In this document: positions 3,845 to 37,805 of the stretch, in pieces
Position numbering within the stretch: the stretch's first letter is position 1
How the letters are laid out: the number at the start of each line of letters is the position of its first letter
IMG/VR virus record: IMGVR_UViG_3300034061_001902
Span: 1 to 37,805 of that record
DNA from: a virus
Length of the DNA: 37,805 nt
Direction: 5' to 3' (one strand)
The notes under the pieces: model-generated
Databases searched by the model: none
Seen by the model: only the letters and a program-made list of their open reading frames with translations
Told to the model about the DNA's origin: nothing
Made by a program: the position numbers and the translations under genes

Positions 3845-4015
3845 CTAGCCCTCAATCCGTTCGCAGCCTGCGCCGCCGCGCCAGACCTGGGTGGCCGCGA
3901 CGAACGCTTTGGTGCGAAGCCACTTGGCCCAATTCTTCGCCTTGCGTTCAGTCTCGAAGTAAGCGGAACGTTCGATTGCGCCGGTCTGGTTGGTAAAGGT
4001 GACTTCGTAGATCAT
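3845..4015 (-). CDS. First gene of the leftward operon, 56-residue protein
   Basis: 56 residues: a short beta start (MIYEVTFTNQTGAIERSAYF), a Lys/Trp-rich helix (ERKAKNWAKWLRTKAF) and a C-terminal turn with WRGGAG. It looks like a compact alpha/beta protein; I recognise the type from phage early regions but know no function. The ATG at 4015 has GGAG about 10 bases upstream and faces the divergent control region, so it is the first product of the leftward promoter. Confidence 0.75.
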   Translation of the reverse strand: MIYEVTFTNQTGAIERSAYFETERKAKNWAKWLRTKAFVAATQVWRGGAGCERIEG

Positions 4016-4165
4016 GTGGGCTGCTCTCCGTCTGTGTGTTCGTGTCCAGAGATTGCGCCTTGTGCAAGCCAGTGTCCAGAACTATTTTGGCTCGCGGTGC
4101 AAAATAATTTGCAACCCCAAAAAAAACCGCTTGCAATCCCTTAGCACAAGGCGCAAGGTTCCGGC
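4016..4165. promoter_or_regulatory. Divergent control region with operator-like repeats
   Basis: This 150-base gap separates the first leftward gene from the first rightward gene (an HTH regulator), so both major promoters should lie here. Visible structure: GTGTCCAGA occurs twice, at 4042-4050 and 4072-4080, 30 bases (about three helical turns) apart. A perfect 13-base inverted pair lies at 4053-4065 (TTGCGCCTTGTGC) and 4144-4156. TTGCAA occurs at 4109-4114 and 4131-4136. The middle is A/T-rich with an A8 run. TTGCAA (4109) with TGCAAT (4132) at a 17-base spacing could be a rightward promoter, but the match is weak. The repeats are likely binding sites for the regulator encoded at 4166 (inference). 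Confidence 0.65.
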
Positions 4166-4375
4166 ATGACATTAGATCAATACCTGACACGCAACAAAAT
4201 GACCGCAACCGAGATGGCTCAGACCCTCGGCCGCGCCATTTCCACAATAACCCGCATCCGTAAGGGTGAAATCAAGCCGGATTTCGACACAATTCAAGAA
4301 CTTGTCGATGTGACGGAAGGCCTGGTTACGCCCAATGACTTTTTTGTGATGCCGGCCAAGAAGACGCGCAAATGA
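4166..4375 (+). CDS. Cro/C1-type helix-turn-helix regulator
   Basis: 69 residues, essentially one XRE-type HTH domain: YLTRNKMTATEMAQTLGRAI, then STITRIRKGEIKPDFDTIQEL, with the turn and recognition helix at about 17-34. Such proteins bind short operator sequences as dimers. It is the first rightward gene, beside the divergent control region with its repeats, so autoregulation and control of the leftward promoter are likely. It is the size of Cro, not of a two-domain CI repressor, and no CI-like partner is present. AAGG lies 7 bases before the ATG. Its stop region (ATGA) leads straight into the hairpin-rich stretch. Confidence 0.9.
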   Translation: MTLDQYLTRNKMTATEMAQTLGRAISTITRIRKGEIKPDFDTIQELVDVTEGLVTPNDFFVMPAKKTRK

Positions 4376-4384
4376 ACCAGACTA

Positions 4385-4675
4385 CCGCGCATGGACCCGC
4401 ACTTGCGCGGCGCTCTCATGGGGTATCAGTCCCCGGCGCTCCCATGAGAGCAACCTTTTCAGACGCGTGCGCTGGCCCCCTGGCCCACGCCGCCCTCGGT
4501 AGTCACTCCGTCCACTGGTCCTCAGCTACCGAGGGCACCCCCATCCGTGATGCCCGGTTGGCATTGGCTGTTTGGCAGGGTCAGTACGCTGCCTGTGATC
4601 GTCTCCACGACTTGAGCGCCCGTTACTTGCAACCGTGTGTAAGCTACCCACGGAAGCCGGTAACGGGCCTTTTTT
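4385..4675 (+). ncRNA. Candidate structured RNA: serial hairpins ending in a terminator
   Basis: About 290 bases with a series of perfect inverted repeats. H0: 4385-4391 with 4404-4410 (7 bp). H1: 4412-4422 with 4441-4451 (11 bp, GCTCTCATGGG). H2: 4465-4469 with 4486-4490, enclosing GGCC/GGCC. H3: 4492-4502 with 4526-4536 (11 bp, GCCCTCGGTAG). Small stems at 4551-4563 and 4574-4593. Last is a 9-bp terminator stem with an inner CCGTG/CACGG hairpin. Two 11-bp perfect stems in succession are not expected from coding sequence. A frame of 101 codons is open here (4372-4677) but its product looks non-biological and it ends in the terminator's T run. Transcription from the HTH gene would pass through the element. 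Possible roles are a regulatory RNA or a cis-acting antitermination (put/nut-like) element. Confidence 0.6.
4618..4675 (+). terminator. Intrinsic terminator with a branched stem
   Basis: GCCCGTTAC (4618-4626) pairs perfectly with GTAACGGGC (4660-4668), followed at once by C and TTTTTT (4670-4675). Inside the long loop CCGTG (4633-4637) pairs with CACGG (4649-4653). The U-run and strong stem fit Rho-independent termination on the plus strand. It would stop transcripts from the HTH gene before the early genes unless antiterminated. Confidence 0.75.
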
Positions 4676-4702
4676 AGGCATAGAACACAAGGGGACGGGG
4701 GA

Positions 4703-4855
4703 ATGTTTAGGACAATCAAGCGTTTCTGGACCCGGTACGTACTACGACGCGAAGCCGCTCGCCTTTCTACAACTGAGCGCGCGGCGCGGGGTGTGGCTCC
4801 GGTTCAACGGATTAACAAAGGCCGTCCCGTTCATGTTCCAGCGGGGAAAAAATAA
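4703..4855 (+). CDS. 50-residue very basic protein
   Basis: 50 residues, with about one third Arg/Lys/His (for example FRTIKRFWTRYVLRREAARL). It has a GGGGACGGGGGA ribosome-site region directly upstream and ends in TAATG, overlapping the VRR-NUC gene by one base. The high charge suggests nucleic-acid binding, but no family is recognised. It is the first gene after the terminator, so its expression would depend on read-through or on a promoter not identified here. Confidence 0.6.
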   Translation: MFRTIKRFWTRYVLRREAARLSTTERAARGVAPVQRINKGRPVHVPAGKK

Positions 4856-5292
4856 TGTCGGCGGGCTTCATGATTCCGGCAGCTAACGTGAAGCGTGCCA
4901 CGGCTAAGAAAGCACGGGCAAATGGGAAGCGGGCGCGTAGACGCCCCGAAGCTCTCATCCAAGAGAGCGTGTGCCAGTACCTTGCCCTTCAGGAGCGCCA
5001 GGGTCGGCTGCTCTGGTTTGCGGTCCCCAATGGTGGATCGCGCAACCTGTTGGAAGCGGTGAACTTGAAGCGGCAAGGAGTTCGCGGGGGCGTTCCAGAC
5101 CTGGTAATCGTGCCCAAGGTCGGACCTGTCTGCTTCATCGAACTCAAATCCAAAGATGGCACGCTGTCCAAGCTGCAAAGCCTCTGGCTTGAGAGCCTGT
5201 CTTTGTACGGATGCCCCGTAGCTGTGTGCCGGTCACTTGATGAGGTTATGCAATTCCTATTCGAGCAGGGCGTTATTCGAGAAGTCTTCTAA
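4855..5292 (+). CDS. VRR-NUC domain nuclease
   Basis: 145 residues. A basic N-terminal tail (11-30) precedes a VRR-NUC fold of the PD-(D/E)XK superfamily: Glu37 in ALIQESVCQYL, the WFAVPNGGSRN turn, VRGGVPDLVIV with Asp82, and FIELKSKDG with Glu96 and Lys98, then LSKLQSLW. Stand-alone VRR-NUC proteins are common in phages and act as structure-specific nucleases, for example on branched or flap DNA. The ATG overlaps the upstream stop. It could help resolve recombination or replication intermediates together with the leftward exonuclease-ERF system (inference). Confidence 0.92.
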   Translation: MSAGFMIPAANVKRATAKKARANGKRARRRPEALIQESVCQYLALQERQGRLLWFAVPNGGSRNLLEAVNLKRQGVRGGVPDLVIVPKVGPVCFIELKSKDGTLSKLQSLWLESLSLYGCPVAVCRSLDEVMQFLFEQGVIREVF

Positions 5293-10517: not shown

Positions 10518-10710
10518 GGACATTGCCGCGCAGATCGAGATTTACGCGCGGAAGATGGAATCATACCCAGCCGATATTGTGCGCTACGTGATTAAAACGC
10601 AGATTGACAACAGCCCGTGGTGGCCGGCATGGAACGAACTCAAGGACAGGCTTGATTTGTTTCTGAGCGCCCGGAGCCGGAAGCTTATTGCGCTGACGAC
10701 GCAGCCATGA
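10348..10710 (+). CDS. Replication-region protein with WPAWNEL helix
   Basis: 120 residues from an ATG with GAGAAG about 9 bases upstream. The frame is open to 9937, and an earlier start is possible. The C-terminal half (IAAQIEIYARKMESYPADIV, then RYVIKTQ and WWPAWNELKDRLDLFL) is a helical pattern seen in phage proteins encoded just after DUF1376 replication proteins. From about 10340 on, this frame shows the high G/C third positions of a real gene. It shares about 170 bases with the upstream gene in another frame. Function unknown; helicase-loader-like roles occur at this position in other phages (inference). Confidence 0.75.
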   Translation: MRQYLPEPTRPEPLPQDEHQKALAAVKATLSTVNGAECRKLLAEMKYLTRQRAESTEDIAAQIEIYARKMESYPADIVRYVIKTQIDNSPWWPAWNELKDRLDLFLSARSRKLIALTTQP

Positions 10711-11291
10711 TTTACACCGGATCAGGCGACCTACCCCGTCATCTTTACGTCTACGTTGACCGCTCGTTTATTCGCCGCGACGGTACGGGATTTGAACCCG
10801 CTGTGTGGTTTGGCCTTACCGCAAAGTTTGGCGAGATGTGGGGCGCAAATTTGATGCTGGAATGTGGGGCGATCTACCGCAACGTTCCGTTGCACGCGCT
10901 GGCCTTTAGACCCAACCCGGACCCAGATTGGAGCGAACAAAGCGCCCAAGCTTGGGACTGCTACGGGGCTCAGTTCTCGGTGATCGAATACCGATATCTG
11001 ACCAACGTACAGGCGGAAATCCGCAAGCCTGCAAAGCTGATGGGTTCGTACCTGTTCACGGCCATTCCGTTGTTTGACGGCTATACGCGCCACCCCGGCC
11101 AGTCGAAAGAGTTTGTGTTTCTTGAGCTTGAGAACGGGCGTTTGTCCTGTAAGTCCACGGACATGCTGATCTTCCACGACAAATCATTCTGCACGCCGTC
11201 GTGGCCGACCGATCTACGCCGGCAAGTGGACACCTACCATTGCGAAATGTCGGCTGTAGCGGACATTGTTGGGAAAAGGATCGAAGGATGA
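10707..11291 (+). CDS. Conserved phage protein, unknown function
   Basis: 194 residues, soluble alpha/beta, no recognised domain. The N-terminus (PRHLYVYVDRSFIRRDG) resembles a beta strand with basic turns. Several Cys and Trp residues are spread through it without a metal-site pattern. Its start overlaps the previous stop (ATGA), and its end overlaps the next gene by 4 bases. Position between replication genes and the metabolic pair gives no clear role. Confidence 0.75.
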   Translation: MIYTGSGDLPRHLYVYVDRSFIRRDGTGFEPAVWFGLTAKFGEMWGANLMLECGAIYRNVPLHALAFRPNPDPDWSEQSAQAWDCYGAQFSVIEYRYLTNVQAEIRKPAKLMGSYLFTAIPLFDGYTRHPGQSKEFVFLELENGRLSCKSTDMLIFHDKSFCTPSWPTDLRRQVDTYHCEMSAVADIVGKRIEG

Positions 11292-11593
11292 CCAAGACAA
11301 TCCCCGAAATAGACGATGAGATGGTTGAGCGTGCGTTTAGGTGGCTGAACGAAAACGCATGTTTTGGCGGTGAGCCGTTTTCGGAAAGCCGCCGTCAGGT
11401 TCGATGTGCATTGGAAGCCGCCCTTACAGAACCCGAGATAGAGGTGACTGAGACCATGGCCGAAGCTGGTTGGAGCGCGTCTTGCGAGGGATACAACAGC
11501 GCCATCAAAAGGAATGCCGCCGTCTACCGCGCCATGGTTAAGGCCGCGCCTGGGGGTATTCCTCACGCCATTAACTCTGTAACGATAATATGA
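11288..11593 (+). CDS. Small phage protein, unknown function
   Basis: 101 residues. The ATG at 11288 overlaps the previous stop (ATGA); an earlier in-frame start at 11201 would lie deep in the upstream gene. Helical and acidic (PEIDDEMVERAFRWLNENA, later EVTETMAEAGWSASCEGYNS). The second block resembles a short motif seen in several small phage proteins, but no function is known. Ends 4 bases into the oxidoreductase gene. Confidence 0.7.
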   Translation: MTKTIPEIDDEMVERAFRWLNENACFGGEPFSESRRQVRCALEAALTEPEIEVTETMAEAGWSASCEGYNSAIKRNAAVYRAMVKAAPGGIPHAINSVTII

Positions 11594-12336
11594 AAATAGG
11601 CTTCATCGGCTTATCAAAAATTGCTGCCGGTTATGAGGATCCCAAAGAAACGCATTTAGGGGCGATCCTGCGCGCCAATCCAAAAGCCAACCTCGTATGC
11701 TTTGACCCTGATAAAAACGCCCAGGTCGCCGCAAAACAAAGATTTGGGACCATCCACATCGCGGATGAATTAGACGCCTTGAAATGCGATGTGGTGCTTA
11801 TATCTTCCCCGACGCAAACCCATTATCAGCACGTTACAAAAGCCCTCACACAACGGCACAAGCCCGTAGTGGTTTGCGAAAAGCCCCTGGCTCCCACATA
11901 CGAGCAGGGCCGCGAGCTTGTGGAAAGGGCAGATCAATCCGGTCAAACCCTAATCGTCAATTTTCAGCGCCGATGGCTTCCGGGTGTTTTGCAATGGTGC
12001 GCAGCTGCCAACCAAGGCCAATTCGGTAGACGAAGGGCGAGCGTGTTTTACGTTGGTCCCGAAACACGGGAAAGGTTTATCGCCTCGGCAAGCCACGCCT
12101 TGGACATTGCCGGGGCGTGTGGCGTGACGGCAGAGAATATCGACGTTTACCCGTATTTTGATTTTTCTGTCGAGGTTAGGTGCGAGCAAAGCAGCCTAAC
12201 ACTCCGCAAAATCGGGGACCTTGTGCCCGTTTGGGAAAATATCTTTAACCACATCGCCAAAGGAGATTCATTGCCGTGCCGCGCCGCAGACCATCTCCCC
12301 GGAATGAAACTCGTGGACGAACTGTGTCCAGCTTGA
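11590..12336 (+). CDS. Gfo/Idh/MocA-type NAD(P)-dependent oxidoreductase, short form
   Basis: 248 residues, against about 330 for the family. The N-terminal Rossmann fold is clear: KIGFIGLSKIA (2-12, glycine-rich loop), VCFDPD, then VVLISSPTQTHYQHVTKAL and the hallmark CEKPLAPT with Lys98. The following helix and VNFQRRWLP match the family's substrate domain, as does ASASHALDIAG with His169 and Asp172. The C-terminal sheet is shortened. Members oxidise or reduce sugars, inositols or related compounds. An N-formyl-type transferase gene follows, so the two may modify one sugar or nucleotide. It is somewhat more A/T-rich than its neighbours, suggesting acquisition from a cell. Confidence 0.85.
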   Translation: MKIGFIGLSKIAAGYEDPKETHLGAILRANPKANLVCFDPDKNAQVAAKQRFGTIHIADELDALKCDVVLISSPTQTHYQHVTKALTQRHKPVVVCEKPLAPTYEQGRELVERADQSGQTLIVNFQRRWLPGVLQWCAAANQGQFGRRRASVFYVGPETRERFIASASHALDIAGACGVTAENIDVYPYFDFSVEVRCEQSSLTLRKIGDLVPVWENIFNHIAKGDSLPCRAADHLPGMKLVDELCPA

Positions 12337-12443
12337 CCAAGAAAACCGCAAAGAATGACGCCACAGCCAAGCGCACAGGCATGACCTGGAGCTTCCGGCA
12401 GAAAAAATACGTCACCCTCAGGGAATGGTGGGACCTTGGCTAA
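12276..12443 (+). CDS. Possible 55-residue basic protein between oxidoreductase and formyltransferase
   Basis: A frame with a GTG start at 12276, 10 bases after a strong AAAGGAGA site, overlapping the end of the oxidoreductase gene and the first bases of the formyltransferase gene. The product is highly basic at the N-terminus (PRRRPSPRNETRGR) and ends in an aromatic stretch (TWSFRQKKYVTLREWWDLG). The ribosome site supports translation of something here. A GTG at 12324 or a TTG at 12333 would give a shorter form. No homologue recognised. Confidence 0.5.
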   Translation: MPRRRPSPRNETRGRTVSSLTKKTAKNDATAKRTGMTWSFRQKKYVTLREWWDLG

Positions 12444-13056
12444 GAAACTCAAAACCGTAGCACTTCTCGCCCGCAAGCCTGGATTGGAAATTCTTGACGC
12501 GCTTTTGTCGGATCCCCGGATCGATTTGAAAGTGGTCTACACTTACAACCACCTTCCAAAATCTGAGAGCCCGAAGGAAAACAATTCCATCGGCTACACC
12601 GTAACGCAGCGCCCGGAATGGCCGGTGTTCAAGGAAAAGTGCGAAGCTGCCAGCGTGTTGATTTGGTCCGAGGTTGGATCAAACGGCTTTAATCCAACAA
12701 ACGACCGCCATGCGCCCTATGATTTGCTTCTGTGCTGCAATTGGCGCCAGGTTGTGCCTGAATGGATACTCAGCGCCGCGCGCCACGCCATCAACATTCA
12801 CCGTGGCGACCTTCCAAAATACCCCGGCAAGCGCCCTGTCCTTCAGGCCGTAGAGGTGGGGGAAGCGAGAGTAGCCATCACCGCGCACAAAATGACCGGG
12901 GTTATCGACGGAGGCCCAGTGATTGCAAAGGTTTACGCGGACGTTGTTAAGGCTTCGACGTTTGCGGAATCTGAAACGCTGACGCGAGACGCGCTTGTAC
13001 CGTACTACGCGCCGTTAACGAGATTTATTGTAGATATTGCTTCCCGTGAAACCTAA
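12436..13056 (+). CDS. Formyltransferase-fold enzyme (PurN/Fmt/sugar N-formyltransferase type)
   Basis: 206 residues from a TTG start. The C-terminal half carries the formyl-transferase N-domain signature: AINIHRGDLPKYPGKRPVLQ with Asn120 and His122, then ITAHKMTGVIDGGPVIAK with Asp158, giving the Asn-His-Asp catalytic set. These enzymes move a formyl group from 10-formyl-tetrahydrofolate to an amine. The protein lacks the C-terminal tRNA-binding domain of methionyl-tRNA formyltransferase and is nearer in size to PurN or to sugar N-formyltransferases. With the oxidoreductase upstream it may formylate a sugar or nucleotide. The exact substrate cannot be read from sequence. Confidence 0.85.
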   Translation: MAKKLKTVALLARKPGLEILDALLSDPRIDLKVVYTYNHLPKSESPKENNSIGYTVTQRPEWPVFKEKCEAASVLIWSEVGSNGFNPTNDRHAPYDLLLCCNWRQVVPEWILSAARHAINIHRGDLPKYPGKRPVLQAVEVGEARVAITAHKMTGVIDGGPVIAKVYADVVKASTFAESETLTRDALVPYYAPLTRFIVDIASRET

Positions 13057-37469: not shown

Positions 37470-37805
37470 TTAGCCGTCGCCGTAGCCGGAGCCGTAGCCG
37501 GAGCCGGAGCCGTAGCCGGAGCCGTAGCCGTCGCCGTAGCCGTCGCCGTCGCCGTAGCCGGAGCCGGAGCCGTAGCCGGAGCCGTAGCCGTCGCCGTCGC
37601 CGTAGCCGGAGCCGGAGCCGTAGCCGTAGCCGTAGCCGGAGCCGTAGCCGGAGCCGTAGCCGTCGCCGTAGCCGTCGCCGTCGCCGTAGCCGGAGCCGGA
37701 GCCGTAGCCGGAGCCGTAGCCGTCGCCGTAGCCGTCGCCGTCGCCGTAGCCGGAGCCGGAGCCGTAGCCGTAGCCGTAGCCGGAGCCGTAGCCGGAGCCG
37801 TAGCC
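37470..37805 (-). CDS. Gly-Tyr/Ser/Asp dipeptide-repeat protein, C-terminal part
   Basis: 111 codons plus stop, continuing in frame from the part at 99-1. All residues alternate Gly with Tyr, Ser or Asp until GDG and TAA (37470-37472). The frame at 37803-37805 (GCC, a Gly codon on the minus strand) joins exactly to codon 3-1 (GTA, Tyr). No membrane helix, cysteine or basic residue is present in the whole repeat; the only charges are Asp, so the protein is acidic. Length probably varies by slippage, and the assembled copy number may be wrong. Confidence 0.75.
   Translation of the reverse strand, partial: GYGSGYGSGYGYGYGSGSGYGDGDGYGDGYGSGYGSGSGYGDGDGYGDGYGSGYGSGYGYGYGSGSGYGDGDGYGSGYGSGSGYGDGDGYGDGYGSGYGSGSGYGSGYGDG
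37473..37805 (-). repeat. Right part of the hexamer array with a higher-order duplication
   Basis: Fifty-five hexamer units follow the final GCC. Read on the plus strand as D/Y/S for gtc/gta/gga, units 10-31 (37530-37661) and 32-55 (37662-37805) are the same series except for one inserted D-Y pair, i.e. a segmental duplication of 132-144 bases on top of the six-base repeat. Confidence 0.9.

Follow-up and report, generated by a model that had tools for sequence, protein, structure and literature searches.

Background

In phage lambda the nut site lies after the cro gene and is followed by the terminator tR1, which stands before the early genes. In phage HK022, the put elements are RNAs of about 70 nt with two stem-loops, which occur in a left and a right copy, bind the zinc-binding domain of the polymerase and antiterminate without a dedicated protein factor; putR is located about 270 nt beyond the start of PR (PMC9378689). 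In P4, the CI RNA pairs with the sites seqA and seqC (summarised in PMC4825925). Only the papers on HK022 put and on IsrK/P4 were useful in our literature search for an RNA matching the one described here.

The RNA lies in a stretch of DNA of 37,805 nucleotides (the window), which is an IMG/VR virus record; the relatives of its portal protein include phages of Bradyrhizobium, Rhizobium, Myxococcus and Stenotrophomonas. A preliminary description of the sequence had placed a structured RNA with a terminator in a nut- or put-like position, between a cro-like gene and the early operon, and this placement proved right. The RNA starts 206 nt past the start of the HTH gene, which would place it early in the rightward transcript, and its first bases overlap the stop codon of that gene (ATGA). 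Before the HTH gene, a divergent promoter region is flanked by the 13-nt inverted repeat TTGCGCCTTGTGC / GCACAAGGCGCAA, and on the other side of the RNA the early operon encodes sORF50, a VRR-NUC nuclease, a helicase, a methylase and a primosomal protein. The coordinates of these features are given in Table 1.

Table 1. Features of the structured RNA locus (window coordinates)
Feature	Coordinates	Strand	Description
Divergent control region	4053-4156		Perfect 13-nt inverted repeat, 4053-4065 / 4144-4156; operator-like, function inferred
cro-like HTH gene	4166-4375	+	69 aa; Pfam HTH_26 / HTH_3; PHROG transcription regulation
Structured RNA element	4372-4675	+	Begins at the ATGA overlap and ends with the T-run; based on covariation with L028 125-441
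H0 hairpin	4385-4410	+	CCGCGCA/TGCGCGG, 4385-4391 with 4404-4410; identical across all variants
GGACC, H0 loop	4393-4397	+	Possible partner of 4517-4521; invariant in three variants
H1 hairpin	4412-4451	+	11 bp, 4412-4422 with 4441-4451; inner sequence GGGGYATCMGTCCCCGGCG conserved
H3 hairpin	4492-4536	+	Perfect 11 bp, 4492-4502 with 4526-4536; 12 pairs counting G-U
GGTCC, H3 loop	4517-4521	+	Possible partner of 4393-4397; invariant in three variants
H4	4550-4564	+	Short stem ATGCC-CGGTT-GGCAT; L028 version ATGGG-CGGTTT-CCCAT
Branched intrinsic terminator and T6	4618-4675	+	Stem 4618-4641/4645-4668, 79% complementary; T6 at 4670-4675
sORF50	4703-4855	+	First gene past the terminator; basic 50-aa protein; no family match
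VRR-NUC nuclease gene	4855-5292	+	Early operon; Pfam PF08774

Comparison with known phage RNAs

Like lambda nut and tR1, the element is preceded by a cro-like gene and has a terminator between it and the early genes; however, its hairpins are much larger than boxB, no N-like family match was obtained, and no boxA was found when 4372-4675 was scanned for TGCTCTTTAACA with up to 3 mismatches. Like HK022 putR, it is an RNA with strong hairpins early in the rightward transcript (here about 200 nt in) and ahead of terminators. Unlike put, it is about 245 nt long and comprises at least H0, H1 and H3, plus the terminator. The covariance model of the RNA (R1, spanning 4372-4616) finds a single copy in the window, and no comparable fold is present in the leader of the left operon; R1, which was built from three sequences and is of limited sensitivity, has no match in HK022. 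Since size, hairpin number, copy number and sequence all differ, we rejected membership in the HK022 put family. The RNA may work like put or nut, though we assign it to neither.

With P4 CI, isrK and C4 it has in common that it is a phage RNA in a leader bearing on termination or on downstream genes. An immunity RNA had been proposed; for one of the P4 type, no complementary 11-mer that could serve as a seqA or seqC site was found in the neighbourhood of the RNA, its own stems aside. Nor is an immunity role supported otherwise, since the subset of proteins that was tested yielded no lysogeny gene.

Hairpins and predicted fold

The serial perfect hairpins and the terminator previously described for 4385-4675 are indeed present there. 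Apart from H1 and H3, the 37.8 kb window has no perfect stem of 11 bp or more (loop 3-30), whereas local shuffles give 0.25. The folding energy of the whole 305-base stretch is -133.5 kcal/mol (z = -4.4), and H1 and H3 folded separately have z values of -4.3 and -5.0, respectively. When 150-base windows were slid along the phage, the folding energy of the element was not exceptional; the case for an RNA therefore rests on comparison and not on energy. All the stems first listed can be located at the positions given for them, but the weaker internal stems H2, H4 and H5, with pair probabilities of 0.14-0.63, have little support; other small stems are also poorly determined. H4 shows two swapped pairs in a hand alignment, with pair probabilities of 0.63 and 0.21, which makes it a weakly supported stem.

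Homologues and covariation

The RNA is identical in the contigs 3300046009_007344, 3300048580_000292 and 3300034104_003732. The copy in 3300046001_006631 (L006/L109) has 2 differences, both in the H3 loop (4514 A/T and 4522 T/C), and an additional change past the terminator at 4685. A single diverged homologue was found, in L028 (the same as L005, 3300006805_003896) at positions 125-441. Its RNA is 62.6% identical to that of the window (147 of 235 aligned columns), unlike its sORF50 and VRR-NUC genes, which lie downstream as in the window and are about 95% identical at the DNA level. In both phages the RNA begins at the stop codon of the regulator gene, despite the regulator genes being different. 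The upstream gene of L028 (1-127) is unrelated to the HTH gene of the window, yet ends at the same ATGA. As judged from the two sequences, the regulator gene is exchanged while the first 40 bases of the RNA stayed nearly identical. Loops and linkers are better conserved than stems between the two RNAs, and the H3 loop, 21 nt in the window, has equal length in L028.

The preliminary description had called for compensating changes in the stems, and such changes were found in H1, H3 and the terminator by comparison with L028. For the covariation test the structure was taken from the window sequence alone and the MAFFT alignment was blind to structure. In this alignment 93% of the pair cells are still paired, compared with 33-45% after the partner is shifted by 1-3 columns, and 11 pairs have changed on both sides against 3.6 +/- 1.5 in shuffles, a count reached by 0 of 500. 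One of the five covariation measures, the count of further pair types, shows no excess over shuffles. Fully swapped pairs amount to 5/11 in H1 and 4/12 in H3, and all pairs stay standard. A search of the alignment for all possible helices, with no structure as input, ranked H1 (5 double changes) and H3 (4) at the top, the next helix having 1. In the terminator, whose arms were matched by position, 5 of the 9 outer pairs are swapped in L028 with pairing kept. L028 alone folds H1, H3 and the terminator at high probability. H0, being invariant, shows no covariation, and an alternative fold competes with it in L028. We regard selection on the RNA fold as well supported by these sequence comparisons, with one diverged homologue as their basis.

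Further relatives were searched for in several ways. Model R1, which includes a misplaced 4-pair H2, recovered known copies only from selected loci and 54 whole records. The isrK and C4 RNAs are Rfam families; for the window RNA, a search of Rfam at gathering and lax thresholds yielded 0 matches (the best lax match had E = 2). Scans of viral contigs for DNA motifs (H4, the H0 loop, the H1 loop and H4-H5) returned known contigs and chance matches only, the H0 plus H1 pattern gave 0 matches in the genome collection, and alignment of VRR-NUC against that collection gave no relative. Likewise, neither the L028 RNA (E up to 10) nor the window region had a blastn match among phages, and plasmids gave three short chance matches. 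The collections were searched by exact motifs or close protein relatives, so distant RNA relatives could escape. A locus from the sORF50 search (L167) was rejected, as it lies within a methyltransferase gene and carries no such RNA. Relatives carrying the helicase have clusters of hairpins, in L031, L034 and others, with no similarity to the window RNA. In L031 (4268-4342), and also in L034, two perfect 11-bp hairpins stand one base apart just upstream of RusA-like and helicase genes.

Loop-loop contact

The preliminary description had pointed to a match between TGGAC (4392-4396) in the H0 loop and GTCCA (4510-4514) in the H3 loop. This match is present in the window but is not conserved: GTCCA is altered in L006/L109 (4514 A to T) and absent in L028. 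Among the columns outside the core stems, GGACC:GGTCC is the only conserved pairing with at least 4 G-C pairs, and the loop changes of L109 (4514 and 4522) flank GGTCC and leave it intact. These observations suggest a possible contact between the H0 and H3 loops through GGACC:GGTCC, which, being invariant, is without covariation.

The 101-codon frame

The frame 4372-4677 is open in the window, and in L028 the frame that starts at the same ATG stays open over 107 codons; by our own estimate, a 100-codon frame at this GC content has roughly a 7% chance of being open. The frame could be a gene, or else a leader that opens the terminator by being translated; in favour of this are the shared ATG, which overlaps the stop codon of the regulator gene, and a tblastn alignment of the 101-codon frame with L028 (35% identity, E about 1e-5), a protein-level similarity that could be explained by shared nucleotides. 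The substitutions between the two phages are, however, spread 30/28/30 over the three codon positions, of the 43 codons that differ 6 are synonymous, where 4.6 would be expected (P = 0.29), two stretches run in another frame in L028 than in the window, the codon score is lower than that of the genes of the phage, and no protein family match was found in Pfam or PHROG. A leader whose translation mattered independently of its sequence is not touched by this codon evidence against a gene. Taken together, we consider a gene or translated leader very improbable. The earlier view that 4385-4675 holds no convincing protein is borne out, as there is no protein constraint in the frame. A homologue keeping the frame and losing the pairing had been named in advance as evidence against the RNA; instead, the homologue retains the pairing but not the protein sequence, and the frame is open in both phages.

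Terminator and downstream genes

The outer 9 pairs of the terminator stem are perfect and are followed by a C and then by T6, so that a GC-rich stem passes directly into a U-run as expected of an intrinsic terminator; the covarying stem of L028 has a T-run of its own. A simple terminator scan missed 4618-4675 because the loop is branched. In both the window phage and L028 the terminator stands directly before the early operon. From the end of the T-run (4675) to the ATG of sORF50 (4703) there are 27 bases, sORF50 has its own ribosome-binding site, and a promoter scan of 3900-4900 gave no sigma70-type match. Since only these 27 bases separate the T-run from the ATG and no promoter match was seen, the downstream early genes probably depend on read-through. 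A switch between terminator and antiterminator by alternative pairing appeared weak and was not common to both RNAs.

The protein sORF50 is conserved (92% in L028, 62% in L006), had no match in Pfam, PHROG or PDB, and is predicted with low confidence as one helix at residues 2-30. Its first 10 codons differ with the RNA cassette, reading MFRTIKRFWTR in the window and MFKTIKALWNR in L028, the rest being identical. This variation resembles that of nut sites and N proteins in lambdoid phages, and the basic sORF50 is a candidate partner protein of the RNA; alternatively, linkage across a recombination point may by itself account for the difference.

Possible functions of the RNA

The reading we favour, to which we give about an even chance, is that the element is a structured RNA, transcribed together with the regulator gene, which acts in cis to control read-through towards the early operon. 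We infer that transcription starts at a promoter ahead of the HTH gene and that the action is in cis, and we also infer the direction of the control. The rightward early transcript would carry the RNA just after the cro-like gene, and the nascent RNA would fold H0, H1 and H3, with H0 and H3 possibly joined by their loops, before the polymerase reaches the terminator. Binding of the folded RNA to the polymerase itself, to a host factor or to a phage protein would let read-through pass the terminator and reach sORF50, VRR-NUC and the replication genes; without it, transcription would stop at the terminator. The covariation of H1, H3 and the terminator, the lack of coding constraint, the short distance from the T-run to sORF50 with the same arrangement in L028, the start of the RNA at the regulator stop codon in both phages and the putR-like position support control in cis. 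On the other side, no nut site or antiterminator gene was recognised, one diverged homologue is available, the left operon has no second copy, and no conserved alternative pairing would open the terminator; a weak or non-sigma70 promoter may also lie upstream of the terminator. The earlier description of a structured RNA rather than a gene is sustained by the compensating changes and the absence of protein constraint, whereas its put-type antiterminator stays at the level of a possible role. It is unlikely, in our estimate, that the locus represents a new class of phage antitermination in which a 245-nt RNA, built around the H0-H3 loop contact, lets polymerase pass the terminator alone or with sORF50. 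An unrelated large RNA in a put-like position with no visible nut sites would, if true, suggest that the use of folded RNA to time early genes is more general among phages.

Conserved loops and linkers between less conserved stems, an end in a terminator and a place within an exchanged cassette would suit a trans-acting small RNA, made by processing of the HTH transcript or from a promoter of its own within the HTH gene, and ending 3' at the terminator. Its loops would bind a target RNA or protein, and the early genes would be expressed by leaky read-through. Such an RNA would be a new phage small-RNA family absent from Rfam. We hold this, the main rival reading, to be possible, on the doubtful side, for the promoter scan is negative, the phage has no notable complementary target (matches of 11-12 nt are near chance), and the early genes would lack their own promoter while lying behind a terminator. 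A terminator and strong stems right after a stop codon could also be a passive 3' structure of the HTH mRNA, with stable hairpins that protect the message and a terminator that does no more than reduce downstream expression. However, stability alone would not keep loops and linkers while stems turn over, and the equal length of the H3 loop would go unexplained; we think this decidedly unlikely. Chance inverted repeats without function, with which the unexceptional sliding-window energy would agree, are hardly credible given two 11-bp stems against 0.25 expected per window and the matched changes in L028; the homologue refutes them unless L028 is a sequencing artefact. Whatever its function, the 300-base element has in L028 a ready diverged partner.

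Other features of the genome

Both ends of the window (position 1 and 37600-37805) lie inside an array of the hexanucleotide TAGCCG with about 56 copies, and the contig 3300034104_003732 (L117) joins the window end to the window start. It is therefore probable that the genome is circular or circularly permuted and was cut within the repeat. At 10707-12336 and 12436-13056 there are matches to a GFO/IDH/MocA oxidoreductase domain, to a PHROG annotated as 'ferredoxin' and to a formyltransferase-like protein, and the genes concerned are apparently metabolic or host-takeover genes.
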